A stretch of 64,000 bases of DNA from Agreia sp. PsM10 (GTDB taxonomy: Bacteria; Actinomycetota; Actinomycetes; Actinomycetales; Microbacteriaceae). Under the pieces are notes generated by a model. It did not search any database, was not told the origin of the DNA, and saw only the letters and a list, made by a program, of their open reading frames with translations. The stretch spans positions 186,001-250,000 of the forward strand of contig NZ_JARUXC010000006.1 of the NCBI RefSeq assembly GCF_030433855.1. Direction: 5' to 3'. This document shows, one piece after another, positions 18,579-34,143 of this stretch (position 1 is the first letter of the stretch; every line of letters begins with the position of its first letter). The translations under genes were made by a program, and so were the position numbers.

Positions 18579-20255
18579 ATGGACTCCTCTCTTCTCGCGA
18601 TTCTGCAGGTCGGCGCGCTCGTTCTCATCCTCGTGGCGATCCACCGTCCGCTCGGTGACTACATGGCCCGCATCTACTCGTCGACGAAAGACCTGCGGGT
18701 CGAGCGCGGCTTCTACAGGCTGATCGGGGTGGATGCCCGGGGCGAGCAGACCTGGATGGCCTACCTCCGCAGCGTGCTCGCGTTCTCGCTCGTCGGCGTG
18801 CTGCTGGTCTACGCCCTTCAGCGCGCGCAGGCGATCCTGCCGTACTCGCTCGGGTTCCCCGCCATCCCCGAGGGCCTGTCGTTCAACACGGCGATCTCCT
18901 TCGTGACGAACACCAACTGGCAGAGCTACTCGCCCGACGTCACCATGGGCTACACGGTGCAGCTCGCCGGCCTCGCGGTGCAGAACTTCGTCTCGGCAGC
19001 CGTGGGCATCGCCGTGGCGATCGCCCTCGTGCGCGGATTCGCCCGCACCCGCCAGGGCACCCTCGGCAACTTCTGGGTCGACCTCACCCGCGGAACGCTT
19101 CGCCTGCTGCTGCCCCTCGCGGTGCTGGTCGCGATCGTGCTGATCGCGGGAGGCGTCATCCAGAACGTCGCCGGCTTCACCGACGTGACGACCCTGACCG
19201 GCGGCACCCAGAGCATCCCGGGCGGGCCCGTGGCCAGCCAGGAGGCCATCAAGATGCTCGGCACCAACGGCGGCGGCTTCTTCAACGCGAACTCGGCGCA
19301 CCCGTTCGAGAACCCCACCGGCTTCACGAACCTGCTGCAGGTCGTGCTGATGCTCGCGATCCCGTTCAGCCTGCCGCGCACCTTCGGTGCGATGGTCGGC
19401 GACAAGCGACAGGGCTACGCGATCCTCGCGGCCATGGCCGCCATCTTCGTGGTCTCGCTCACTGCGCTGACGCTGTTCGAGCTGAACGGCGCGGGCACAG
19501 CCCCGCAGCTCGCGGGCGGAGCGATGGAGGGCAAGGAGACCCGATTCGGCGTCGCCACCTCGACGCTCTTCGCCTCGACGTCGACGCTCACCTCGACGGG
19601 TGCCGTCAACTCGATGCACGACTCGTTCACGTCTCTCGGCGGCATGATGCCGCTCATCAACATGATGCTCGGCGAGGTCGCACCCGGCGGCGTGGGCTCG
19701 GGTCTCTACGGCATGCTCATCCTCGCCGTGATCGCCGTGTTCATCGCGGGCCTGCTCGTCGGACGCACCCCCGAGTACCTGGGCAAGAAGCTCGGCCCGC
19801 GGGAGATCAAGCTGGCCAGCCTCTACATCCTTGTCACCCCGACGCTGGTTCTCGCCGGAACGGCCCTGAGCTTCGCGATTCCCGCCATTCGCGAGGATGT
19901 CGAGGGCACGTCGATCTGGAACCCCGGCCTGCACGGTCTCACCGAGGTGCTCTACGCGTTCACCTCGGCGGCGAACAACAACGGGTCGGCCTTCGCGGGA
20001 CTCACGGCGAACACCCCGTGGTTCAACACGGCGCTCGGCGTGGCCATGCTGTTCGGCCGCTTCATTCCGATCGTCCTGGTGCTCGCGCTCGCGGGCTCCC
20101 TCGCCGCGCAACCGAAGATCCCCTCCACGGCAGGGACCCTGCCAACGCACCGACCGCAGTTCGTGGGGCTGCTCGTCGGCGTCACGATCATCGTCTCCGC
20201 CCTCACCTATTTCCCCGTCCTCGCACTCGCACCGCTCGCTGAAGGGCTGCAGTAA
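18579..20255 (+). CDS. kdpA: KdpA, K+-binding channel-like subunit
   Basis: The 558-residue polytopic protein is close to the usual 557 residues. It is the K+-translocating SKT-family subunit of the high-affinity KdpFABC transporter. The four selectivity-filter loops are visible, for example [23 protein letters not shown] and [13 protein letters not shown]-type segments, plus [11 protein letters not shown] near the end. GGAGAAG precedes ATG 18579. The next gene, kdpB, starts 5 bp downstream. Confidence 0.97.
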
Positions 20256-20260
20256 CACTC

Positions 20261-22366
<2,106 letters not shown>

Positions 22367-22371
22367 TCACA

Positions 22372-22417
22372 TTCCCTTCGACAGGCTCAGGGAACGTTCC
22401 CTGAGCTTGTCGAAGGG
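22372..22417. repeat. Inverted pair of dispersed repeats between kdpB and kdpC
   Basis: Two copies of the dispersed repeat in opposite orientation (22372-22395 and 22396-22417) meet head to head. They form one long hairpin with a single G-T wobble. It lies between the kdpB stop and the kdpC ribosome site, so it may adjust the amount of downstream kdpC-D-E message. Confidence 0.85.
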
Positions 22418-22445
22418 CCGCATTCATAGAGAGAGAAGCACGACA

Positions 22446-23057
22446 ATGAGTTCACGTTCACGGTCAGGCCGGCAGTACTGGGTGGCGATTCGCGCCATGG
22501 TGGTTCTCACCGCCGTCCTCGGCGTCGGATACACCGCCGTCATCACGGCAGTCGGCCAGCTGGCGATGCCGGCCCAGGCCAACGGCCAGCTGGTCGAGGA
22601 TGCCGACGGCCGGGTGGTGGGGTCGGCCCTCGTCGGCCAGTCGTTCACCGACGCCGACGGGGCGGCCCTGCCCGAGTGGTTCCAGTCGCGCCCGTCTGCG
22701 GCCGGCGACGGATACGACGCCTCCGCCTCGAGCGGCAGCAACTACGGGCCCGAGAACGCCGATCTCATCGCCGCCATCGGCGACCGTCTGGCCTCGGTCG
22801 CTAAACTGGAGGGCGTGTCGGAGTCCGAGGTTCCCGCAGATGCCGTGACCGCATCCGCATCCGGCCTCGACCCCCAGATCAGCCCGGAGTACGCGCGCCT
22901 TCAGGTGCCACGCGTCGCCGAGGCCCGCGATCTTCCCGAAGACGAGGTGGCAGAGCTCGTCGAGAATCACATCCAGGGCCGCGACCTCGGCATTCTCGGT
23001 GACCCCACCGTGAACGTGCTCGAACTCAACCTCGCGCTCGCAGCGCTGGCCGACTGA
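22446..23057 (+). CDS. kdpC: KdpC, accessory subunit of the Kdp ATPase
   Basis: The 203-residue product has one N-terminal transmembrane helix (about 12-35). The periplasmic-type domain carries the family hallmarks GSALVGQSF, WFQSRPSAAGDGYDAS, SGSNYGPEN, DAVTASASGLDPQISPEYA and QVPRVAEAR. ATG 22446, behind AGAGAGAAG, is preferred to the earlier ATG at 22407, which lies inside the repeat hairpin. kdpD begins 2 bp after the stop. Confidence 0.96.
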   Translation: MSSRSRSGRQYWVAIRAMVVLTAVLGVGYTAVITAVGQLAMPAQANGQLVEDADGRVVGSALVGQSFTDADGAALPEWFQSRPSAAGDGYDASASSGSNYGPENADLIAAIGDRLASVAKLEGVSESEVPADAVTASASGLDPQISPEYARLQVPRVAEARDLPEDEVAELVENHIQGRDLGILGDPTVNVLELNLALAALAD

Positions 23058-23059
23058 CG

Positions 23060-25633
23060 ATGTCGCGGGGTCGGCTGCGCGTGCTGCTCGGCGCCGCGCC
23101 CGGCGTGGGCAAGACCTACACGATGCTCGAAGAGGGCTCGCGTCTTGCGGCCGAGGGGCGCGACGTGGTCGTGGCCGTGGTCGAGACCCACGGCCGCGAG
23201 GCCACCGCCCGCATGGTGGCCGGCCTCGAGGTCGTGCCGCGTGTCTCGGTGACCCACCGCGGGGTGACGCTGAGCGAGATGGATCTGGAGGCCGTGCTCG
23301 AGCGGCATCCGGATGTCGCCCTCGTCGACGAGCTCGCCCACAGCAACGCGCCCGGCTCCCGCAACCCGAAGCGCTGGAACGATGTCGAGGCGCTGCTCGA
23401 CGCCGGCATCGACGTGATGACGACCGTGAACATCCAGCACCTCGAGTCGCTCGGCGACGTCGTGGAGCAGATCACGGGTGCCCGGCAGCAGGAGACCGTG
23501 CCCGATCGGGTCGTGCGCGCCGCCGACCAGCTCGAGGTCGTCGACCTGGCGCCTCAGGCCCTGCGCGACCGGCTCGCCGACGGGCGGGTCTACCCGGCCG
23601 AGCGCATCGATGCTGCGCTCTCGAACTACTTCCGGCTCGGCAACCTCACCGCCCTTCGCGAGCTCGCCCTGCTCTGGCTGGCCGACGAGGTCGACTCGGC
23701 GCTCACGTCGTATCGCGCCGACCACGGCATCGCGAGCAAGTGGGAGGCCAGGGAGCGCGTGGTCGTCGCCCTCACCGGCGGACCGGAGGGGGAGACGCTG
23801 CTGAAGCGCGGGGCCCGCATCGCGGCCCGCTCGGCCGGCGGCACGCTGGTGGCCGTTCACGTCACCAGCCAGGACGGCCTGCGCGCGGCGCATCCCGGCG
23901 CACTGGCGGCTCAGCGATCGCTCGTGGAATCGCTCGGCGGAACCTTCCACCAGGTGGTCGGCGACGACATCCCGGCCGCCCTCGTCGACTACGCGCGCGG
24001 CGTGAACGCGACCCAGCTCGTGATCGGCGTGAGCCGTCGCAGCCGGCTGAGCGCGGCCCTGTCGGGGCCGGGCATCGGCGCGACCGTGATCCGCGCATCC
24101 GGCGACATCGACGTGCACATCGTGACGCACGCGGCCGCCGGAGGGCGGCTCTCTCTTCCGCGTTTCACCGGATCGCTGACCGTGCGCCGTCGCGTGCTCG
24201 GATTCGCGCTCGCCCTCGGCGGGGGGCCGCTGGTGACCTGGCTGCTCGTATCGCTGAGGTCGGACGAGTCGATCACCTCGGACGTGCTGACGTTTCAGCT
24301 GCTGGTCGTTCTCGTGGCGCTGGTCGGCGGCATCTGGCCGGCGCTGTTCGCCGCGCTGCTGTCGGGCCTCACGCTCGACTTCTTCTTCGTCGATCCGCTC
24401 TACACGGTCTCGGTGGGCGAGCCGCTGCACCTGCTCGCACTCGGCCTGTATGTCGTGAACGCCGTGCTCGTCAGCGTGGTCGTCGACACCGCTGCGCGGC
24501 GCAGCCGGCAGGCGCGACGGGCGGCCGCCGAGTCGGAACTGCTCGCGACCGTCGCCGGCAGCGTGCTTCGCGGACAGGACGCGCTTCAGGCGCTCGTCGA
24601 CAGGACCAGGGAGGCCTTCAGCCTGCGCGAGGTGCGTTTGAAGGGCGACGACGGCAGTGTTCTGGCCGTGTCGACTGCGCCGTTCCCTGAGCCTGTCGAA
24701 GGGAAACCCGTCTCGACAGGCTCGACGAACGGGCGCGTCTCGACGAACGGCGTCGACTCGAGCGTGCCCGTCGGCGACCGCGCCACGCTCGAGCTGTGCG
24801 GCCCCGACCTCGCGGCATCCGAGCGTCGCCTGCTCGGCGTCATCGCCGCGCAGATGGAGCAGGCGCTCGAGCACAGGGACCTGGCCGCGACCGCGAGCGA
24901 GGTCGGGCCACTCGCGATCGCGGATCGTATGCGCAGCGCCCTTCTCGCGGCGGTCGGCCATGACCTGCGGCGCCCGTTGACGGCGGCGACGGCCGCGGTC
25001 AGCGGATTGCGCTCGACAGAGGTGCAGCTCAGCCCGGATGATCGGGCGGAGCTGCTCGACACGGCTCAGGAGAGCCTCGACGCGCTGGCCACCCTCGTGA
25101 CCGATCTGCTCGACGTGAGCCGGGTCGAGGCGGGGGTGCTGGCGGTCTCGGTGCACCCGATCGACGTCGAGGACGTGATCGTTCCCGCCCTCGACGAGTT
25201 GGAGCTCGGCCCCGATCGCGTGGAGCTCTCGCTCGGCGCCGACGCGCTGCCACCCGTGCTGGCCGACGAGATCCTGCTGCAGCGCGTGCTGGTGAATCTG
25301 CTCTCGAATGCCGTGCGGTTCTCGCCGGATGGCGCGAGGGTGCGTCTGTCGGCCAGCGACTTCCGCGGTCGCGTCGAACTGCGGGTCGTCGACAGCGGGC
25401 CGGGAGTTCCTGGCGAGCGGCGGGATGAGATCTTCGTTCCGTTCCAGCGCCTCGGAGACACCGACAACTCGACCGGCCTCGGGCTGGGCCTCGCCCTGTC
25501 GAAGGGCTTCGTCGAGGGCATGGGCGGAACGATCGAGGCAGAGGACACCCCCGGAGGCGGGCTGACCATGGTCGTCTCGCTGCCCACGGCACCGGATGAG
25601 CGGGCGGCCGACGAGCTCGAGGAGCAGCAATGA
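23060..25633 (+). CDS. kdpD: KdpD, K+/turgor sensor histidine kinase
   Basis: The 857-residue sensor has the KdpD N-terminal domain with Walker A GAAPGVGKT (9-17) and the VDELAHSNAPG motif. A universal-stress-like domain (about 230-355), four DUF4118 transmembrane helices (about 375-480), a GAF-like segment, HisKA with phospho-acceptor H634 (VGHDLRRPLTA) and an HATPase domain (DSGPGVPG, GLGLGLALSKG) follow. Between the GAF-like and HisKA parts, residues 541-548 read FPEPVEGK, the translation of a dispersed repeat copy followed by repeat-like remnants. It overlaps kdpE by 4 bp (ATGA). Confidence 0.97.
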   Translation: MSRGRLRVLLGAAPGVGKTYTMLEEGSRLAAEGRDVVVAVVETHGREATARMVAGLEVVPRVSVTHRGVTLSEMDLEAVLERHPDVALVDELAHSNAPGSRNPKRWNDVEALLDAGIDVMTTVNIQHLESLGDVVEQITGARQQETVPDRVVRAADQLEVVDLAPQALRDRLADGRVYPAERIDAALSNYFRLGNLTALRELALLWLADEVDSALTSYRADHGIASKWEARERVVVALTGGPEGETLLKRGARIAARSAGGTLVAVHVTSQDGLRAAHPGALAAQRSLVESLGGTFHQVVGDDIPAALVDYARGVNATQLVIGVSRRSRLSAALSGPGIGATVIRASGDIDVHIVTHAAAGGRLSLPRFTGSLTVRRRVLGFALALGGGPLVTWLLVSLRSDESITSDVLTFQLLVVLVALVGGIWPALFAALLSGLTLDFFFVDPLYTVSVGEPLHLLALGLYVVNAVLVSVVVDTAARRSRQARRAAAESELLATVAGSVLRGQDALQALVDRTREAFSLREVRLKGDDGSVLAVSTAPFPEPVEGKPVSTGSTNGRVSTNGVDSSVPVGDRATLELCGPDLAASERRLLGVIAAQMEQALEHRDLAATASEVGPLAIADRMRSALLAAVGHDLRRPLTAATAAVSGLRSTEVQLSPDDRAELLDTAQESLDALATLVTDLLDVSRVEAGVLAVSVHPIDVEDVIVPALDELELGPDRVELSLGADALPPVLADEILLQRVLVNLLSNAVRFSPDGARVRLSASDFRGRVELRVVDSGPGVPGERRDEIFVPFQRLGDTDNSTGLGLGLALSKGFVEGMGGTIEAEDTPGGGLTMVVSLPTAPDERAADELEEQQ
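24683..24704. repeat. Dispersed repeat inserted in kdpD
   Basis: TTCCCTGAGCCTGTCGAAGG lies in frame in kdpD. The next 55 bp contain CTCGACAGGCTCGACGAACG and GTCTCGACGAACGG, fragments of a related repeat. The insert sits in the linker before HisKA and keeps the frame. Confidence 0.85.
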
Positions 25634-26316
25634 AGATTCTTATCGCCGACGACGATCCCCAGATCCTGCGTGCCCTCTCGGTGACGCTTCGGGCCCGCGG
25701 CTACGACGTGGTGGTGGCCCGCGACGGAGCCGAGGCCCTCAACGCGGCGATCGACGAGCATCCTGATCTGGTCATGCTGGATCTCGGCATGCCGAAGCTG
25801 ACGGGCATCGAGGTCATCGAGGGTCTGCGCGGCTGGTCGCAGGTGCCCATTCTCGTGGTCTCGGGTCGCACCGACGGGGCGGAGAAGGTGCTCGCGCTCG
25901 ACGCGGGCGCCGACGACTACGTCACCAAGCCGTTCGCCATCGACGAGCTGCTCGCGCGCATCCGGGCCCTCACCCGGCGGGTGCCCTCGGCCGGCGACGA
26001 GGCGCTGATCGCCTTCGGCGACGTCACCGTCGACCTCTCGGCCAAGCGGGTCACCAAGCGATCGGATGCCGGTGGCGACGAGACCGTGAGGCTCACGCCG
26101 ACCGAATGGATCATTCTCGAGACCCTGGTGCGGAGCCCCGGTCGTCTCGTCACGCGGGCGGCCCTGCTCACCGCGGTGTGGGGGCCGAACCACACGAACG
26201 ACTCGGGCTACCTGCGCGTGTATCTCGCCCAGCTGCGCAAGAAGCTCGAACGCGAACCGGCGCGGCCCCGCCACCTGCTTACCGAGGCCGGCATGGGCTA
26301 CCGCTTCGTTCTGTGA
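25630..26316 (+). CDS. kdpE: KdpE, OmpR-family response regulator
   Basis: The 228-residue regulator has a receiver domain (IADDDPQILRALSV, phospho-acceptor D51 in VMLDLGMP, switch residues S/T and K in VVSGRT and DDYVTKPF). Its OmpR/PhoB winged helix has LTPTEWIILETLVRSPGRLV, HTNDSGYLRVYLAQLRKKLE and GMGYRF. It would be phosphorylated by KdpD and activate the kdp promoter. The direct repeat at 18300-18317 is the proposed target. Confidence 0.97.
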   Translation: MKILIADDDPQILRALSVTLRARGYDVVVARDGAEALNAAIDEHPDLVMLDLGMPKLTGIEVIEGLRGWSQVPILVVSGRTDGAEKVLALDAGADDYVTKPFAIDELLARIRALTRRVPSAGDEALIAFGDVTVDLSAKRVTKRSDAGGDETVRLTPTEWIILETLVRSPGRLVTRAALLTAVWGPNHTNDSGYLRVYLAQLRKKLEREPARPRHLLTEAGMGYRFVL

Positions 26317-26849
26317 CGGCTAGAACACCTGGCGCTCGACCCGCTCGGGATGCGCGCTCAGAAGGTCACGCTCGTCCCGTGTGGTTAGGAGGGCGGGCTG
26401 GCCAGCACCCCTCTCATTGGGGGAATGCGTCGTACGGCGCTGACCTATTAAATGAGGATTACTAACGGGGGGGTCCTGACCGATCTATAGGCCTACCTCG
26501 TCTGTCTGCGGATGTGGGAAAGACATTGCGCAATCAGGTGACGCGAGCAGTTCGATGAAGGTCCAAGGGTGGATCGAGTCTGCTAGTTGTCATCGCTTCC
26601 AGAGACCTGGGCTCATGATCAATTTAGGTTCAACACATTCCGCTCCTCCTGAATGTGAAGAAACCTCGGATAGCCGCGTTCGAAAACGACAGAGCGCGCG
26701 TCTCTTCTCATAAGACCGGCAGGCTTCCTGCCGTTCTCCGCAACTGGAACTCCCAAAAGAGGCCTGTTGTGAGCATCTCACTCACCACCTTGGCGCGCAT
26801 TTGGGGATGCCGCCGATCAATCTGTATGCACATTCGAAGGGGACCCAAA
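26317..26849. other. 533-bp low-GC gap before the surface-protein island
   Basis: No gene is convincing here: the in-frame extension of the next gene to ATG 26655 lacks a ribosome site and a signal-peptide-like start. The base composition is noticeably AT-richer than the neighbouring genes. A small perfect hairpin CGGCAGG-CTT-CCTGCCG (26717-26733) and an inverted repeat GTGAG-CAT-CTCAC (26769-26781) may mark the leader or operator of the surface-protein gene. Confidence 0.6.
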
Positions 26850-29800
26850 ATGACCACAGCACCGACCCAAGCGGCCCACCCGCCGCGCAGAGCGAGATAT
26901 GCGCTGGCCGCGGTAGCGACCCTGCTCACGCTCATCTCCACGATCTTTGTTGGAGGCCTGCCAGCCCAGGCCGCTGTCATCAGCGCCCAACTCGGAGTTA
27001 TCAGCGACGGAACCGGACCGTTCGACGAATTGGACGCCGACGCGAACAACGGTCTCGTTCGCACTCACGACACCGTCGCTTACGGGTGGCAGTACAACAC
27101 CGATGAGACGGCTGTCGACGCCACCTTCGTTCAGACGATCTCGGCGCCAACCACAGGCGTTACCTTCAGTGAGAGCAGCCTCGTGCTGTGCACGGGCCCG
27201 AACGGCGGATCGATCAGCGCCGACGGCCTGACGATCACCTGCCAGGTCGCTTTGCCCGCGAATACGACCGGCTCCATTCCGATCAACGTCACGGTCGACG
27301 GCACGAACCCGAACGGCACTGTCATCACTACGGCACTGACAGTGGACAGCGTCGACGCAGGGACGCAGTTGACCACCATCGTCGCAGCCCCCAACTTCGA
27401 TCTGAAGAAAAACATCTTCGCCTTCTCAGCAGCGACTGTCCTCAACGGCGAACTCGGCCGCTACGCCTCATACGTGTGGGCCGTTTCCGCGCCCACCTCC
27501 TTGAAAGGCAGCGAGAACCTCACCAGCCCCTTCACTTTCGTTGACGACGTCAGCGGAGTTTCCCCTAACGCGCAGCTCATCTCGTGCCCGGCGATCACCG
27601 CGGGCTACGAGGGATACCACATGCCGTATTCGGCGATCGGAATCACCCCGGCCGCAAATGCCGGCAACTCCGTCGCCAACTCGGGCACAACAAACTGCAC
27701 CCAGCCCAACGGTGCCGGCACCGACATTCAGGTAACTGTTACCGGCGCCGACCTCAGCGCCGACAGCATCCCGACGCTCAGCGCTGATTCGAACCCGGTC
27801 GCCGGCGGAAGTAACTACGTCGCTACTGGGATCGTGTTCCTGTTCATCCCGACCTCGGACATCGTCGACGCCGGTGGTTCTATCGACACCACGAACCAGT
27901 TCCGAGGCTTCGACCCCGACTCGATCTCCGGTCAGTCCAACTTCGGTACCGGCTACGAGTCCGGCAGTGACCCCACAACTCCCGCCTGCGAGTTCGTCAG
28001 CGACAACTCCACCCGGGCCAACAACAACTGCTTTTCCTTCACAATGGTCGCCACGCAGGGCGCGCACGACAAGTACCTCCTCACCATGGATGCCTCCGCC
28101 TATGCCGGGGGAGGAACCGGTGCACACGCGGGCAATGGAGTCGTCGCACCCGGAACCGAGTACCAGAGCCAACTCGTCATCGCCAATGTCGGCGTGACGG
28201 ACTTCACCGGCCAGGGCATCTGCGATATCTGGGACCCGGCAACACAACAGATAACCGCCGCAGGAGACGTGCTCCGCAACTCCACCACGCTTATGGATCC
28301 GTCCCAGTACACCGTCGAATTCGGCGCCTTCCCGCTGACCAACGACGACGACCGCCGAAACCTCAACTGCGGCACCGGCACGTGGTACCCGAGCATCGCC
28401 GCTGCAGGCGGAGCATCCGTGGTGAACGCAATTCGTTTCCTACCGAAGTGGGATATGACACCTAACGAGCAAGACCTCTTCCGGGTCAGATTCGTCGCCG
28501 TGGACAATCCCTACGGAACGATCATCGGCGACTGGGCCAATGTCAACTTCGGTGGCGGTTGGAGTAACTCCAACTACGACAAGAACTCCAACACGGGGGG
28601 TGTCGGCGACCGCCTGACCCTCACTCCGGCCCAGGCGGGAATCTCCAAGACCACAGTTCCTGCGGCGAGCTCCGTGCTGGCCGGCCAATCACTGACCTAC
28701 CGTCTGCAGCCCACTCTCACCACGGCGGCGGACACTCCGGCGCCGGTGGAGAACGTGACGGTCGTTGATACCCTGCCCAGCTGCCTGCAGTACGTGGCGA
28801 GTTCGGCGTCTCTGCCCGTCACCCTTACCCCCGGCAACACCGGTACCGATGGCATCCCCTGCACCGGTGACACAGGCGAGACAGGCGACGTTCTCACCTT
28901 CGCTCTCGGCACGCAGACGCCCAACACGGTGCTGCCGGCTATCACGTACCAGGTCTCCACACTCGGAACGACCCCGAATGGAACGCACGCGTCGAACACC
29001 GCCGTGGTGTCGTTCGATGGAGCCGACCCGATCGACCTGTCGCGCCGCACTGCGGTCTACGACATCGTGATTCTCAACCAGGCCCAGTTCTCGATCGCCA
29101 AGACAACCGACACGCCGCTGGTTCAGGTGCGTGATTCGTTCCGCTACACAATCTCGTACCGCAACAACACAGGCAACACCGTCGCACAGGCGCAGTTGAT
29201 CGACGAGCTGCCATACAACGGCGACAGTCGAGGAACCTCCTACACAGGACAGGCCGACTTCGCCGGCGCTACAGGGGTTCCCTCGAACGCGGTCGTGGAG
29301 TGCACGACCGACGCGCACGGCACGATCGGGGCCGATCCGGCGACCAACACCAACACGTGGTCGACGGCCTGCCCGGCGAACACCACCGCGGTGAGAATCA
29401 CGGTCACCACGATTCCGGATGCAGCCGTCGGCGGGGTCACCCTGCAATTCACCGGCCTCGCGAACCAGGAAGGCGACCACTACATCAACAACGTCGCCGG
29501 GGCGCGTGTGTCCGGCTTGACGAACGTCATCCCGCCGACCGCCCCGGTGCGTGTCGACGTGATCGCGTCGACCATCGGTGACGTCGTCTGGAACGACGCC
29601 AATTACAACGGTCTGCAAGATGAGGGCGAGACCGGAGTCGAGGGTGTGACGGTCACACTCGCAGGAACCGACGACCTCGGTAACCCCGTGTCGGCGTCGA
29701 CCACCACGGCCGCTGACGGGTCGTACTTGTTCAGCAACCTCAGGGCAGGCACCTACACCGTGTCGTTCACCGCACCCAGCGGTGAGGAGTTCACGATTCA

Positions 29801-30815
29801 GAACGCGGGCGATGGAAGCAACGACTCCCGAGTTCCCGTTGGACTCGGAACCCAGTCGGCCGCGCCCATCACCCTCGGAGTCGACAGCGACAACCTCGCC
29901 CAAGACGCGGGAATCTCGTCACCCGACATCTCGCTGGTCAAGAGCGCATCGCCGCCCGCGAACGGAGAGAAGTACCAGGCCGGTGAAACGGTGACCTACA
30001 CCTTCGTGGCAACCAACACGGGTCCGACTCCGCTGACCGGGGTGACCGTCACCGAGACGTCGTTCACCAACGGCGCGGGTGACGTGCTGACTCTGACGAC
30101 ACCGATCGTCGCCTCCGTGCCGTCGCCCTTCGATGGAACGCTGGCGTCCGGCGCTTCGGTGACCTTCACCGCCACTTACGTCGTCACCCAGGCAGACGTG
30201 GATGCCGCCGGTTCGATCGATAACTCGGCCCACGTCGTGGGGCTCTCGCCTGCTTTCCAGCAGGTGACCGATGATAGCGACGTGTCGATCAACACGGGCA
30301 CCCCGGCCCCTGGCATCAGCCTGGTGAAGGGGGTCGCCAATAAGCCGGCCAACGGAGTCGGCTTCGTCGCAGGCGAAACGGTGAAGTACATCTTCACGGT
30401 GCGCAACACCGGCAACGTCACCCTGAGCGACGTCACCGTCACGGAGGATTCGTTCACCAACGCGGCCGGCCAGAAGCTGAAGCTGACGACCGGCCCGGAT
30501 GCCCCCGCCGGCTTCACGGGAACCCTCGCCCCGGGCGAGCAGGTCGTCTTCACCGGCAGCTACATCTTGACCGCGGCTGACACCACGGGAGATCTCGTGA
30601 ACGTCGCGACCGTGACCGGTACTCCGCCGACAGGTACTCCGCCGACGAGCACCGATCGTGTGAAGACACCGACCTACGCACCGCCCGGTGCGTCGACGGT
30701 ATCGCTGCCCAACACCGGTATCGATGTGACCTCCGGAGCGATGGGAGCCCTGCTCCTGCTGCTTCTCGGAACCGTCCTGATGATGCGGCGGCGGAGACTG
30801 CAGCACGGGAAGTAG
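26850..30815 (+). CDS. Sortase-anchored surface protein (LPNTG) with SdrD-like and DUF11/DUF7507 repeats
   Basis: The 1321-residue product has a signal peptide (about 1-41, ending PAQAA). A large beta-rich N-terminal region runs to about 590. Two DUF11-like domains start near 596 and 745. An SdrD B-like collagen-binding-type repeat (IGDVVWNDANYNGLQDEGET) covers about 906-1027, followed by two DUF7507/DUF11-type repeats starting ISLVKSAS and ISLVKGVA. The C-terminus is a classic sorting signal: LPNTG at 1286-1290, a hydrophobic stretch and RRRRLQHGK. ATG 26850 was chosen for the GAAGGGGA ribosome site and the signal peptide. It is expected to be a cell-wall-linked adhesin or stalk; the ligand is unknown and no sortase gene is in the window. 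Confidence 0.9.
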   Translation: MTTAPTQAAHPPRRARYALAAVATLLTLISTIFVGGLPAQAAVISAQLGVISDGTGPFDELDADANNGLVRTHDTVAYGWQYNTDETAVDATFVQTISAPTTGVTFSESSLVLCTGPNGGSISADGLTITCQVALPANTTGSIPINVTVDGTNPNGTVITTALTVDSVDAGTQLTTIVAAPNFDLKKNIFAFSAATVLNGELGRYASYVWAVSAPTSLKGSENLTSPFTFVDDVSGVSPNAQLISCPAITAGYEGYHMPYSAIGITPAANAGNSVANSGTTNCTQPNGAGTDIQVTVTGADLSADSIPTLSADSNPVAGGSNYVATGIVFLFIPTSDIVDAGGSIDTTNQFRGFDPDSISGQSNFGTGYESGSDPTTPACEFVSDNSTRANNNCFSFTMVATQGAHDKYLLTMDASAYAGGGTGAHAGNGVVAPGTEYQSQLVIANVGVTDFTGQGICDIWDPATQQITAAGDVLRNSTTLMDPSQYTVEFGAFPLTNDDDRRNLNCGTGTWYPSIAAAGGASVVNAIRFLPKWDMTPNEQDLFRVRFVAVDNPYGTIIGDWANVNFGGGWSNSNYDKNSNTGGVGDRLTLTPAQAGISKTTVPAASSVLAGQSLTYRLQPTLTTAADTPAPVENVTVVDTLPSCLQYVASSASLPVTLTPGNTGTDGIPCTGDTGETGDVLTFALGTQTPNTVLPAITYQVSTLGTTPNGTHASNTAVVSFDGADPIDLSRRTAVYDIVILNQAQFSIAKTTDTPLVQVRDSFRYTISYRNNTGNTVAQAQLIDELPYNGDSRGTSYTGQADFAGATGVPSNAVVECTTDAHGTIGADPATNTNTWSTACPANTTAVRITVTTIPDAAVGGVTLQFTGLANQEGDHYINNVAGARVSGLTNVIPPTAPVRVDVIASTIGDVVWNDANYNGLQDEGETGVEGVTVTLAGTDDLGNPVSASTTTAADGSYLFSNLRAGTYTVSFTAPSGEEFTIQNAGDGSNDSRVPVGLGTQSAAPITLGVDSDNLAQDAGISSPDISLVKSASPPANGEKYQAGETVTYTFVATNTGPTPLTGVTVTETSFTNGAGDVLTLTTPIVASVPSPFDGTLASGASVTFTATYVVTQADVDAAGSIDNSAHVVGLSPAFQQVTDDSDVSINTGTPAPGISLVKGVANKPANGVGFVAGETVKYIFTVRNTGNVTLSDVTVTEDSFTNAAGQKLKLTTGPDAPAGFTGTLAPGEQVVFTGSYILTAADTTGDLVNVATVTGTPPTGTPPTSTDRVKTPTYAPPGASTVSLPNTGIDVTSGAMGALLLLLLGTVLMMRRRRLQHGK

Positions 30816-30821
30816 GCCCGT

Positions 30822-30849
30822 GGGGCGGTGGCACTCCCGCCACCGCCCC
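30822..30849 (+). terminator. Terminator hairpin 1 after the LPNTG gene
   Basis: GGGGCGGTGGC (30822-30832) pairs perfectly with GCCACCGCCCC (30839-30849) around a six-base loop, 7 bp after the stop codon. It is the first of two tandem hairpins before the sigma-factor gene. Confidence 0.8.
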
Positions 30850-30866
30850 GCGCTAGCCCTGAACTG

Positions 30867-30902
30867 CCGGACGGCGAAGGACCCCCAACCTTCGCCGTCC
30901 GG
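30867..30902 (+). terminator. Terminator hairpin 2 before the sigma-factor gene
   Basis: CCGGACGGCGAAGG (30867-30880) pairs perfectly over 14 bp with 30889-30902, with loop ACCCCCAA and then TTCCCGT. Together with the first hairpin it should separate the LPNTG transcript from the sigma-factor gene, which begins 30 bp later. Confidence 0.8.
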
Positions 30903-30931
30903 TTCCCGTCTGCCAACCCAGAGATACACAT

Positions 30932-32662
30932 ATGACCGACCCCTCTTCGCTCTCCGATGCGATGCTTCTGGACGCGTCGCGTTCAGGGGATCAGGCCGCG
31001 TTCGCAGAACTGTGGAAAAGGCACGCCAAGGCCGCGCGTGCCGTCGCCGCATCCTTCAGCACGTTCGACGCCGATGATCTCGTATCCGAGGCGTTCGTGC
31101 GGATCTTCGATGCGCTCCAACGCGGACTGGGGCCCACCGGCGCATTCCGTCCCTATCTGTTCACGACAATCCGCAATATCGCCTCGTCGCTCGGGCGGCG
31201 GCAGCACGAGCTCAATGTCGACGAACTCGACGAGCTAGGAGATCCGAGCAGCAGCGAGGACGCAGTCATGGCCCGCCTTGATCGTTCCATGATCGCCGAG
31301 GCGTTCCGTGCCCTGCCGCCGCGCTGGCAAGAGGTGCTCTGGTACACCGACGTCGAGTCCATGAAGCCGCGGCACATCGCCGAGCATCTTGGCATAAAGC
31401 CGTCGGCGGTGACGGCCTTGGCGCGTCGGGCGCGGGAGGGTCTGCGACAAGCGTGGATCGCTCTCCACCTCGATGCGGCGACCCTGGACCCGGGTTGCCA
31501 CGCCGTACTCCTCAATCTTCCCGCATATGTCCGAGGCGGTCTCGGAGCTCGCGCAACGGCCGAAGTCGCGGCGCATCTTCTGACCTGCGCAGACTGCCGC
31601 GCAATAGCGGCGGAAGCCGCGTCTCTTTCGTCGAAACTGGCGCTGGTGTTGCTACCACTATCTGTCGGCGCCGCGATCGCCGCAGCATATTCAGAAACGT
31701 CTTCTACCGCGCATGATGACGCATCTGTTCGCGCCGGGGAGGGCCCGGAGGGGGCCGTCGCGGACACAGTGGGATGGAAGGTCACGATGCTGTCTGTTGT
31801 GTCACTCCTGGCCCTCATCGTTCTGGTCGCTTTGATCGCGCTACCTCAGGAATCGTCACGAACCTCGTCGGATGAGATTGCCACGACGAGCCCGCAGCAC
31901 CTTACCTCGAGCGTCGTTCCATCCGAATCTGACGACAATGACTCGAAGCCCGGCGACACCGCGGACCCGACGACCACCCCGAGGGCGAACGATATCTCTC
32001 AATCAGATGGGTCAGAACCCCAAGACGATCCTCGGCCGAGCTTTACTTCACCAGACCGGGCACAGGCATCGCCAGACCCCTCCAACCCCGGGAACCCCCA
32101 ATCGGGGTCAGGTCTGGGCGCACCGGTCTTCTCTCACGTGGAAACACCCACTTTCGCCTACCCGGCGGTCTCAGGCAGCGCCTACCCGGGCGCGCTCATT
32201 ACGGTTACCCGAATTCGACCCAAAACCGAGACACCCACACCAACGGATGTCACCCAGTGGACGGTCGTGGCCAGCCAATCCGGCAATTGGAGCGTTGACC
32301 TTATAGGCATAAGACCGGGTACCTCACGGATCGTAGCAATCCAGAAAGCCTCATCCACGGGCCACGCGGCCCGAGTATCGAAGGCGTCGGCAATCCAAAC
32401 ACTCGTCGTCCGCGCACCGCCAGCGCTCACCACCTTCCGTACAGCAAACTCCACCGAGGCGACACTCGACATTCGGGGCGCGCCCGGCGAGAGCATCATT
32501 GTCACTCATACGAATGAGGCAGGCGACGTCGACTGGGTGAGTGATCCGTTGACAATCGGGCCTTTGGGCAAAGTGACCATTTCTGTCAGGCCGCCGTCCA
32601 CCGGATTGTTCATCGCCCGGTACATCGCGGACGGCCGAGCCGCGCCAGAAAGTCTGGCCTAG
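30932..32662 (+). CDS. ECF-like sigma factor fused to anti-sigma zinc motif, membrane segments and outside domain
   Basis: The 576-residue product begins as a sigma-70 family factor: region 2 (about 9-85, DADDLVSEAFVRIFDAL and FRPYLFTTIRNIASSLGRRQ) and region 4 (about 115-175, LPPRWQEVLWYTDVESMKPR, then HIAEHLGIKPSAVTALARRA). It continues into an anti-sigma-like zinc motif H215-x3-C219-x2-C222 (HLLTCADC). Two hydrophobic stretches follow (about 234-253 and 285-308), then a Ser/Thr/Pro-rich linker to about 400 and a C-terminal beta-rich domain. Sigma factor, tether and possible sensor would be one polypeptide, needing cleavage or a conformational change to act. It lies between two sortase-substrate genes, its likely regulon. 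Confidence 0.88.
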   Translation: MTDPSSLSDAMLLDASRSGDQAAFAELWKRHAKAARAVAASFSTFDADDLVSEAFVRIFDALQRGLGPTGAFRPYLFTTIRNIASSLGRRQHELNVDELDELGDPSSSEDAVMARLDRSMIAEAFRALPPRWQEVLWYTDVESMKPRHIAEHLGIKPSAVTALARRAREGLRQAWIALHLDAATLDPGCHAVLLNLPAYVRGGLGARATAEVAAHLLTCADCRAIAAEAASLSSKLALVLLPLSVGAAIAAAYSETSSTAHDDASVRAGEGPEGAVADTVGWKVTMLSVVSLLALIVLVALIALPQESSRTSSDEIATTSPQHLTSSVVPSESDDNDSKPGDTADPTTTPRANDISQSDGSEPQDDPRPSFTSPDRAQASPDPSNPGNPQSGSGLGAPVFSHVETPTFAYPAVSGSAYPGALITVTRIRPKTETPTPTDVTQWTVVASQSGNWSVDLIGIRPGTSRIVAIQKASSTGHAARVSKASAIQTLVVRAPPALTTFRTANSTEATLDIRGAPGESIIVTHTNEAGDVDWVSDPLTIGPLGKVTISVRPPSTGLFIARYIADGRAAPESLA

Positions 32663-32680: not shown

Positions 32681-33006
32681 GATGGCGTCGCCTCAACGGA
32701 CAGTACGAAGCACCGGTGAGAGTTCAAGAAAAATTTCCTCGAGCATTCGCGTCGATAATCGACTTCTGACTCGTCTCTTGGGTAGAGGGTCGCAGAGACT
32801 TCGGGTCCCCATCCGTCCTGCGGCCCTCATCTACGTCACTCCGTCAGGAGGGTGGAACGCAAAGTGAAATCGGCGCTTGCTCGTCCCGCGCCGAGAGGAC
32901 GAAAGGCGTCGTGCGATCGCCGTTTGAAATCGAACATCTGAACGTCTCTTCAATATAGATGTCACGTGCACCCGCTGCGGCATCACCGTCGATGAGAGGC
33001 ACACCC

Positions 33007-34143
33007 GTGAGATCGAATGCAGCAAAGATCGCGCTACCCGCAGTGATACTTGTCGGTGCGAGTATCGCCGTCAGCTCCGGGGCGGTCCAGGCAGCTCAGT
33101 GCGCTCCGATCTCGGTCGACGCACGCGTTCTGTTGTCGGGACCCTATGTTCCAGAGACGGGGCTTATGGGGGACGCTCTGCGAACCTCGGGGGAGCTTCC
33201 TACGACCGAACCATATCGAGACCTCGGATTCATCATGAGGGGTGGTGAGGCTTCCACCCTCGAACTCGGCGACCCCTCGACCTCCGGCCCATCGTCTTTC
33301 GTCGACTGGATGCTGTTCGAGCTGCGAGACCCGGCAGATCCTCGTCTCATCATCGCGACTGACACTGTGCCCGTAGAGCGAGACGGCGACCTCGCTCGTT
33401 CACTGTCGTTCACCGTTCCCTCCGGCGACTACTACCTCGCTGTCGAGCACCGCAATCACCTCGGAGTCATGACCGAAGCTCCGATTTCGCTCACGTCCGG
33501 CACGATACCCATGATCGATTTCACCGACCCGGCGACACCGGTGTGGGACCGAATCGATGTCATCGACGGCGGCGCGGTTATCGACTACCACGGCGTCGAA
33601 CGGCAAATAATCGATGGTGTCGCCGTACTCTGGCCGGGTGACGCAGATCATGACGGCCGATCCCTCTTTGATGGCTCAGGCGATGATGACCCCGCCGTTG
33701 TCGAGAACGCAGCCATGTCAGCTCCAGAGAACATACTCTCTAGCCCCAGCTACATTGTGCCGGCCTACGTCGGCTCCGACCTCAACCTGGATGGCAACGC
33801 CATTTATCAAGGTCAGATCAATGACCCTACGGTCACCGCAAACGCAGTATTTCTCTTCCCTCTGAACATCACAAACGATCCAAATTACCCGTACCTCATC
33901 GAGCAACTCCCGCTTGATCAACTTGGCGAGGCGCGAACCGACAGCTGCGAGTTACCGACTACCCAGCCGAGTCTGCCCCCGGCCAGTGACCCCCGGTCGC
34001 CTAAGCAACCGATCCTGGCGAACACTGGATTCAGTATTTTCGAGAGCTGGCCTGCCGTTGCCGTTTCTCTGTGCATGGTTGCCGCAGGGCTGGTTGTCAC
34101 TGGTCTCCGTCGCCGGGGAAATCGACGTGGTAGCCGCAGCTGA
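33007..34143 (+). CDS. Sortase-anchored surface protein (LANTG)
   Basis: The product is 378 residues from GTG 33007, which has GAGAGG seven bases upstream; ATG 32959 and ATG 32992 in the same frame lack a ribosome site. A signal peptide (AKIALPAVILVGASIAV to about residue 30) leads to a beta-rich domain with DARVLLSGPYVPETGLMGDA, FVDWMLFELRDPADP, DYYLAVEHRNHLGVMTEAPI and a calcium-type loop GDADHDG. This pattern recalls secreted proteins of Bacteroidetes. The C-terminus has LANTG (337-341), a hydrophobic helix and RRRGNRRG, the LAXTG signal preferred by class E sortases of actinobacteria. Confidence 0.85.
   Translation: MRSNAAKIALPAVILVGASIAVSSGAVQAAQCAPISVDARVLLSGPYVPETGLMGDALRTSGELPTTEPYRDLGFIMRGGEASTLELGDPSTSGPSSFVDWMLFELRDPADPRLIIATDTVPVERDGDLARSLSFTVPSGDYYLAVEHRNHLGVMTEAPISLTSGTIPMIDFTDPATPVWDRIDVIDGGAVIDYHGVERQIIDGVAVLWPGDADHDGRSLFDGSGDDDPAVVENAAMSAPENILSSPSYIVPAYVGSDLNLDGNAIYQGQINDPTVTANAVFLFPLNITNDPNYPYLIEQLPLDQLGEARTDSCELPTTQPSLPPASDPRSPKQPILANTGFSIFESWPAVAVSLCMVAAGLVVTGLRRRGNRRGSRS

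Follow-up and report, generated by a model that had tools for sequence, protein, structure and literature searches.

The window analyzed here, the whole stretch of 64 kb, contains a gene for an unusual sigma factor fusion, which, as the earlier note had stated, is located between two sortase-substrate genes: an LPNTG gene upstream (26850-30815) and a LANTG gene downstream (ending at 34143). The features of the locus are listed in Table 1. The products of both flanking genes have an N-terminal signal, an LPXTG-like motif, a hydrophobic stretch and a basic tail, the features by which sortase substrates were called. The LPNTG protein was also matched by TIGR01167 (16.6 bits, cut-off 15.9); the LANTG protein matched no family among the Pfam and TIGR models and was called by the motif rule alone. 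For the start of the LANTG gene, GTG 33007 is a better choice than ATG 32959, because this ATG is only 11 nt behind the -10 element of candidate promoter 3 and because the GTG is preceded by AGAGG and followed by a hydrophobic signal. A gene for a TetR-family regulator (PF00440, 34100-34855) overlaps or closely trails the LANTG gene in another frame. Immediately upstream of the surface locus is a potassium-uptake operon (18579-26316), in which Pfam identified KdpA, a P-type ATPase in the KdpB position, KdpC and a response regulator; the intervening gene looks like KdpD. The LPNTG gene and the sigma gene are separated by two very stable GC-rich hairpins without a T-run, which fill 30815-30903 (z = -8.66; none of 200 shuffles was equally stable), and it is possible that they serve as an attenuator before the sigma gene.

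Table 1. Genes, protein domains, RNA hairpins and candidate promoters at the locus (window coordinates)
Feature	Position	Strand	Basis
Candidate promoter 1 (CGTY-N18-CGTCTC type), ~146 nt before LPNTG gene ATG	26677..26704	+	PWM rank 3
Sortase-substrate surface protein, 1321 aa, N-terminal hydrophobic signal, SdrD_B, DUF11, DUF7507, LPNTG anchor	26850..30815	+	Pfam, TIGR01167, motif rule
Strong RNA hairpin, 14-bp core stem, at LPNTG gene end, no T-run	30815..30858	+	Folding
Second RNA hairpin, 15-bp stem, directly before sigma gene	30866..30903	+	Folding
ECF sigma / anti-sigma / membrane / Ig-like fusion protein, 576 aa	30932..32662	+	ORF, Pfam, AlphaFold2
Sigma-70 region 2, residues 28-91	31013..31204	+	Pfam
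Sigma-70 region 4, residues 120-169	31289..31438	+	Pfam
zf-HC2 zinc-finger anti-sigma domain, residues 189-223, HLLTCADC	31496..31600	+	Pfam
First hydrophobic segment, residues 236-254, within predicted helix 232-260; may not span membrane	31637..31693	+	Segment prediction, AlphaFold2
Second hydrophobic segment, residues 286-304, likelier membrane anchor	31787..31843	+	Segment prediction
Ser/Thr/Pro/Asp-rich linker, low model confidence, probably disordered	31844..32116	+	Sequence, AlphaFold2
Two predicted Ig-like beta-sandwich domains, residues 396-576	32117..32659	+	AlphaFold2, fold comparison
Candidate promoter 2, before LANTG gene; top PWM hit in window	32750..32777	+	PWM rank 1
Candidate promoter 3, before LANTG gene	32921..32948	+	PWM rank 4
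Sortase-substrate surface protein, LANTG anchor	33007..34143	+	ORF, motif rule

The fusion gene is a single uninterrupted ORF that begins with ATG. Its product contains sigma-70 regions 2 and 4 only, the composition of an ECF sigma factor, and both domains scored above their Pfam cut-offs (Sigma70_r2, 30.4 bits against 24; Sigma70_r4_2, 32 bits against 25.7), as did the match to TIGR02937 (77.3 bits, cut-off 42.9). These regions are followed by a zf-HC2 domain (35.7 bits, cut-off 22.2), whose HxxxCxxC motif, HLLTCADC, starts at residue 215 and is that of a class I ASD. Residues H215, C219 and C222 were invariant across 32 aligned rows, which had been chosen for possessing the motif. Judged by its family, this domain is most likely a putative inhibitor of the protein's own sigma part. 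The AlphaFold2 model, for which 29 homologues from named genomes were used as input, contained sigma2, sigma4, the zinc-finger helices and helices 220-230 and 232-260, had low confidence in residues 261-390, and placed two beta domains at residues 399-576, mostly with pLDDT > 90. In fold comparisons, the sigma part matched E. coli sigmaE (1or7_A, Z 12.3, rmsd 14.7 over 156) and SigW (5wuq/5wur, Z 12.0; rmsd 3.0 over 91 for 5wur_A). The best match of the outer part was the C region of Bap (7dm0_A, Z 10.7, rmsd 9.9 over 152), and SiiE scored similarly (2yn3_C, Z 10.6, rmsd 23.0 over 154); however, because many animal FN3/Ig proteins were within 1-2 Z of these bacterial adhesins, only the fold and not kinship is demonstrated for this part. 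The outer part itself matched no Pfam family at 0.01; at the same threshold the outer parts of relatives contained Big_6 in 29 and Big_13 in 25 of the 88 proteins scanned (94 were eligible). Thus, the earlier description of a sigma factor, an anti-sigma motif, a membrane part and a beta domain in one polypeptide holds, given the open reading frame of 576 aa, the Pfam scores and the model.

The same domain order was found in 97 complete ORFs from 50 genomes, the fusion at 30932-32662 included, and in 81 ORFs from named genomes. The former set was obtained from 110 profile matches by removing 13 that had no zinc motif or no later hydrophobic segment or were truncated; for a few named-genome proteins, blastp rows without the expected sigma match were left out. 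The two sets, which have four genomes in common, comprise 171 distinct proteins. The earlier note had considered a frameshift that would split the two halves, but the ORF is open throughout and the identical fused order is kept in all 171 proteins, so that a frameshift, a chimera or a chance product is ruled out. In broader searches, 44 of 60 genomes (the source genome included) had matches to the fusion protein at 0.001, plain sigma factors being among them; the family profile matched 85 of 199 genomes of the family at 1e-20, with plain sigma factors among some of the weakest matches; and 43 of 296 genomes of the phylum had matches at 1e-25. The source genome has two further fusions, on contigs C12 (39% identity over residues 5-527) and C10 (52% over residues 6-254), and the sigma parts of both are ~52% identical to that of the fusion in the window. 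In the closest homologues found (L198 and L199), identity in the sigma part was 59-60%, and a quick tree (SH-aLRT) placed the fusion in a Microbacteriaceae branch of 25 rows (support 96). The common orthologue adjoins serine hydroxymethyltransferase or amidohydrolase genes (one protein of each was scanned with Pfam) and has no sortase partner. SerS, a candidate identity of the 427-aa gene beside some orthologues, was rejected, as Pfam identified a serine hydroxymethyltransferase.

The location of the outer part depends on how many of the hydrophobic segments cross the membrane. Two true spans together with a cytoplasmic sigma part would leave the Ig domains and the C-terminus inside, with only the short loop between the segments exposed. 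Two segments were predicted in 68 of the 97 members and AlphaFold2 built helices for both, as this arrangement would require, yet several observations make it quite improbable. Where only one segment was predicted, it was the second that was retained (18 of 22 members). Among the 68 two-segment members, Lys/Arg averaged 1.09 per 15 residues before the second segment and 0.31 behind it, which points to an outside C-terminus, although the first segment is biased alike (1.96 versus 0.46). In addition, the domain families recognized in outer parts are families of surface proteins, and outer cysteines were even in number in 34 members, odd in 11 and absent in 52. In the topology that we tentatively prefer, the protein would be anchored by the second segment, the first would prolong the anti-sigma helix as a hydrophobic extension, and the Ig domains would be outside.

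The earlier note had also expected the same fusion beside LPXTG/LAXTG genes in relatives, and in several lineages this was the case. Throughout, genes were called with a single home-made caller and sortase substrates by a single motif rule. The first same-strand gene called upstream encoded a sortase substrate at 24 of the 97 fusions, the downstream neighbor did so at 15 and a neighbor on either side at 33, compared with 4 of 337 genes in the background, which comprised 20 regions placed arbitrarily in three of the genomes; pairing occurred in 11 genomes. In four of the 15 downstream pairs the two genes are 798 to 6410 nt apart, and the caller may have missed genes in between. The expectation failed for the closest homologues, L198 and L199, which have no sortase gene within the fetched flanks (L197 has almost no upstream flank), and for the named genomes, where a partner was found upstream of 1 of 81 fusions, this one lacking the promoter motif described below, and downstream of none of 81. 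The first batch of 58 fusions, chosen for similarity to the protein in the window, had 23 upstream and 9 downstream partners, and the second batch of 39 had 1 and 6, respectively. A universal sortase partner is ruled out by the upstream counts of 1/39 and 1/81, and because of these same counts the link is lineage-specific, strong in some lineages and missing in others.

Pairing was most evident in a Microbacteriaceae genome, G010, where 15 of 21 fusions are directly behind a sortase-substrate gene, versus 1 of 196 background genes in the same genome. Twelve of the 15 partners are 1582-2266 aa long, and in three cases there is a 4-nt overlap between the partner gene and the sigma gene. This genome (L050-L069) has at least 21 complete fusions, some in tandem sigma-surface-sigma-surface arrays (e.g., L058 and L059). 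On a separate tree, the upstream-partner label took 9 changes, 8 of them forced by well supported branches, against a shuffled mean of 21.5 (the bootstrap had not settled); therefore, the pairing was gained or lost several times. Within 24 pairs, similarity of the outer parts tracked that of the surface proteins (Mantel r 0.37, no permutation of 1000 as high, although repeats inflate some scores), and similarity of the sigma parts did so somewhat less (r 0.30, 1/1000). Thus, a fusion and its surface protein tend to be co-inherited. It should be noted that all P values here are nominal, because paralogues are not independent. In another class of the phylum (L343, 4619-6358), a similar fusion is followed by an LPMTG gene on the same strand, and the sortase link may therefore extend outside Microbacteriaceae. 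A short ORF encoding a sigma part and a zinc finger with no hydrophobic segment was seen beside a full fusion (L065, 6426-7139); it may be a remnant or a separate gene.

Upstream of the sigma genes of this Microbacteriaceae group we detected a bipartite motif, CGTCATGA-N14-CGTCTC, with 18 nt between two CGTC words. Exact CGTC words at a spacing of 17-19 preceded 33 of the 81 named ORFs (shuffle mean 7.6) and 15 of the 97 others (shuffle mean 6.0), four genomes being common to both sets. The training set of a PWM, 28 distinct sites taken from 30 named loci, excluded Agreia bicolorata and the 64-kb window. Of 80 named loci, 62 had a site scoring >= 14 in the 450 nt that precede the sigma gene (30 of the 80 had given training sites), as had 20 of 97 other loci; the background was 2 such hits in 400 kb. 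A motif before its own sigma gene is the expected pattern for ECF autoregulation, and the motif before these sigma genes looks like an instance of it.

The motif is not confined to sigma genes. Among 182 PWM hits near fusions, 83 preceded sigma genes, 70 preceded other genes, often distant ones, and 6 preceded sortase genes, which are thus a minority among its locations. Many of the hits before other genes are due to a reverse-facing site upstream of the sigma gene: in the ~450 nt before it, such a site was present at 65 of 80 named loci (L197-L276), with sites in both directions at 49. At 41 of these 49 loci the upstream gene is co-oriented with the sigma gene, so that transcription from the reverse site would be antisense or would lead to a gene that was not called. 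PWM sites scoring >= 14 preceded sortase genes near fusions at L018, L057, L103, L174 and L246, as well as the LANTG gene at 33007. The site before the divergent LAHTG gene at L246 counts for less as independent proof of sortase control, since reverse-facing sites are general at the named loci and sortase genes are rare there. No motif was found at Herbiconiux L203 (best score 5.4), where the outer part resembles that of the fusion in the window and the partner is an LASTG protein. When a bipartite motif was sought before surface genes alone (20 regions), the best pair, CGTT-N18-CGTC, occurred in 5, a count that shuffles also reached. Among 29 neighboring sortase genes examined for gaps of 12-24, a gap of 18 was seen in 8 (2.1 expected) and a gap of 20 in 5 (2.2 expected), the others occurring in 1-3; without the genes of the window, a gap of 18 was seen in 6 of 27 (nominal P 0.012).

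In the 64-kb window, plus-strand sites at 32748 (score 16.0), 26675 (12.4) and 32919 (9.5) took PWM ranks 1, 3 and 4. Thus, motif sites precede both surface genes: the three lie within the 0.83 kb preceding these genes, on the right strand (nominal P 1e-6). The site of rank 2 is a minus-strand hit within the sigma gene. All three scores fall short of the training range (22.6-40.3), and shuffled windows reached 19.2, so that the case for these promoters rests on their clustering and not on single scores. No motif precedes the sigma fusion gene at 30932 itself, and a search for sigma-70-type promoters at the locus found none, with 1.7 expected by chance. Genome-wide, CGTYNNNR-N14-CGTCTC, whose Y and R were relaxed after the window sites were known, had 54 matches versus 15 for the reversed control. 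Forty-eight of these overlap called genes; the six intergenic ones comprise the three at the locus, one before the C12 sigma gene and two elsewhere. The three locus sites have in common CGTYNRWAAWCGA-N9-CGTCTC, a pattern fitted to these sites. In the 4.01-Mb genome it occurred exactly three times, always at the locus, with no further site at one mismatch and three at two mismatches (reversed control, 2).

These sites also bear on the question of which sigma factor uses them. It is unlikely, in our estimation, that the flanking surface genes are driven by the related sigma factor of the C12 or C10 fusion, with the targets of the protein at 30932-32662 being elsewhere or nowhere and its adjacency incidental. 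The sigma parts are alike, as noted above, both other fusions could use the locus promoters, the -10 word CGTCTC is common to the locus sites and some paralogue sites, and the closest homologues of the fusion are not beside sortase genes. However, the -35 part differs, being CGTYNRWAAWCGA at the locus and CGTCAYRA-like at C12 and C10, which argues for separate promoter classes, and within the genome the locus variant, fitted as it is to these sites, is confined to this locus. Of the 48 loose matches in the whole genome (reversed control, 20), 5 fall within 6.4 kb at the C12 locus, and one of these is 83 nt ahead of a gene on the other strand that encodes an LASTG leucine-rich-repeat protein. 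Loose matches there (L018, 7297-13751) also preceded a SnoaL-like gene, whose score was below the cut-off, and a 170-aa gene without a family match. The five matches round the C12 fusion are a possible local regulon. As to the fusion in the window, the common promoter-like sequences suggest that it probably turns on both flanking wall-protein genes. The earlier proposal of a switch for wall proteins is thus backed, for the flanking genes, by promoter-motif and comparative evidence for a regulatory link; it does not carry over to the closest homologues found, where no such partner was seen in the flanks, or to the named genomes, where one is rare.

Taken together, we favor, with a probability of roughly 0.6, a transmembrane switch in one protein, in which a self-inhibited ECF sigma factor with Ig domains reaching the wall would be released by a signal and transcribe both flanking surface genes. 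The N-terminal sigma part would be cytoplasmic, where the zinc-finger anti-sigma domain fused to it would keep it from RNA polymerase; the fusion would be anchored in the membrane, and the Ig-like domains would extend into the wall. In response to a surface signal, the sigma part would be freed by cleavage (or by a change in conformation) and would then transcribe the two sortase-anchored surface-protein genes from the CGTY-N18-CGTCTC promoters. The sigma gene itself may be fed by read-through from the LPNTG gene across the two hairpins. Proteolytic release is what we infer by analogy with IutY and with the proposal for ECF52. A profile search of the source genome detected one Peptidase_M50 and two sortase genes; an M50 match was present in 14 of 14 control genomes too, and these genes are permissive for the mechanism and not specific to it.

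Activation might also proceed with no proteolysis, if a conformational change or zinc/thiol chemistry in zf-HC2 opened the sigma part, which would then be active on the membrane. ECFs that carry C-terminal extensions and some ZAS proteins have been described as being activated conformationally (excerpts of PMC8999054), and no protease was among those neighbors that Pfam could identify. A sigma factor tethered to the membrane would, however, need to find chromosomal promoters, and in the accessible parts of the literature IutY is freed by proteolysis and ECF52 is proposed to be (PMC8999054, PMC5826349), so that we regard this route as distinctly improbable. Returning to the switch with release of the sigma part, a broader view can be offered tentatively, as a possibility we would not count on: each fusion and its wall-anchored neighbor might form a self-contained module, in which the sigma factor monitors its partner at the surface (e.g., its export, anchoring or ligand binding) and adjusts the partner's transcription via a private promoter variant, the module having been duplicated to as many as ~15-20 parallel, mutually insulated circuits per cell.

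To our knowledge, little is known about how Gram-positive actinobacteria choose which large wall-anchored proteins to display. The switch, if true, would offer a concrete single-protein example with predicted promoters and target genes, and the 21 paralogues of G010 would be a natural set for studying how parallel sigma factors avoid cross-talk. Parallel sigma/anti-sigma sensors with varied outer domains that control surface or secreted proteins are known from SigI/RsgI of Clostridium thermocellum; unlike the fusion, these are two separate proteins, with another sigma class and polysaccharide-binding outer domains. One target of sigma-I is a xylanase, according to excerpts of PMC10766802.

The earlier note had taken the fusion as unusual, sigma and anti-sigma normally being separate proteins. 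The fusion is real, but it is not new as a type, since sigma/zinc-finger/TM fusions have been described as ECF48, ECF52 and ECF53 (excerpts of PMC8999054 and PMC5826349). In the portions of these papers that were accessible, SCO4117 of Streptomyces coelicolor (ECF52) is the one studied member of the actinobacterial fused group, its signal and promoter are unsettled, and both proteolytic release and autoregulation are proposed for it (PMC8999054, PMC5826349). Like the fusion, SCO4117 combines a sigma part, zf-HC2, a membrane segment, a proline-rich linker and a C-terminal domain in one protein (PMC5826349, in part). Profile A1 found SCO4117-type proteins in large genomes of one genus at 207-229 bits, and they are thus homologous to the fusion. 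The fusion has the ECF52 order of sigma part, zinc finger, hydrophobic segment and linker, its linker being Ser/Thr/Pro/Asp-rich; in place of the C-terminal NPCBM domain of ECF52 it has two predicted Ig-like domains. NPCBM was present in all 4 ECF52-type homologues scanned (L336, L337, L338 and L352), and the homologues of this type, with a TetR-like gene upstream, fit the description of SCO4117 beside atrA. In the quick tree (SH-aLRT only), the 6 SCO4117-type rows, identified via NPCBM (tested in 4) and a TetR-like neighbor judged by eye, formed their own branch (99), with the fusion outside it. None of the 6 ECF52-type loci had the CGTC-N18-CGTC motif of the fusion group, from which the published putative ECF52 motif, CSGYN-17bps-SRHA, also differs (PMC5826349, in part). 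The genes affected by SCO4117 are antibiotic and development genes (same excerpts), whereas the predicted targets of the fusion are sortase substrates, and the likely targets adjoin the sigma gene at 30932-32662. ECF52 is the nearest described group, and the fusion would work like ECF52 while sharing its defining features only in part.

Other known systems are more distant or were compared by description only. ECF48 and ECF53 of Actinobacteria likewise have a C-terminal zinc finger and one to two TM helices, with predicted proteolytic release, and the accessible parts of their descriptions mention no sortase link (PMC8999054, PMC10766802). IutY (ECF243) of Pseudomonas putida also unites a sigma factor and a membrane anti-sigma factor in one polypeptide and undergoes RIP by Prc and RseP, but it belongs to Gram-negative iron-starvation cell-surface signaling and responds to aerobactin (excerpts of PMC8999054). 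We found no paper in the open-access collection searched that links sigma/zinc-finger/membrane fusions to sortase substrates, and flanking sortase-substrate genes as the target of a sigma fusion appear to be new. Thus, compared with these systems, the type of fusion is known, and what is new in the fusion described here is its predicted Ig-like outer part, its promoter class and its repeated, though lineage-bound, pairing with wall-anchored proteins.
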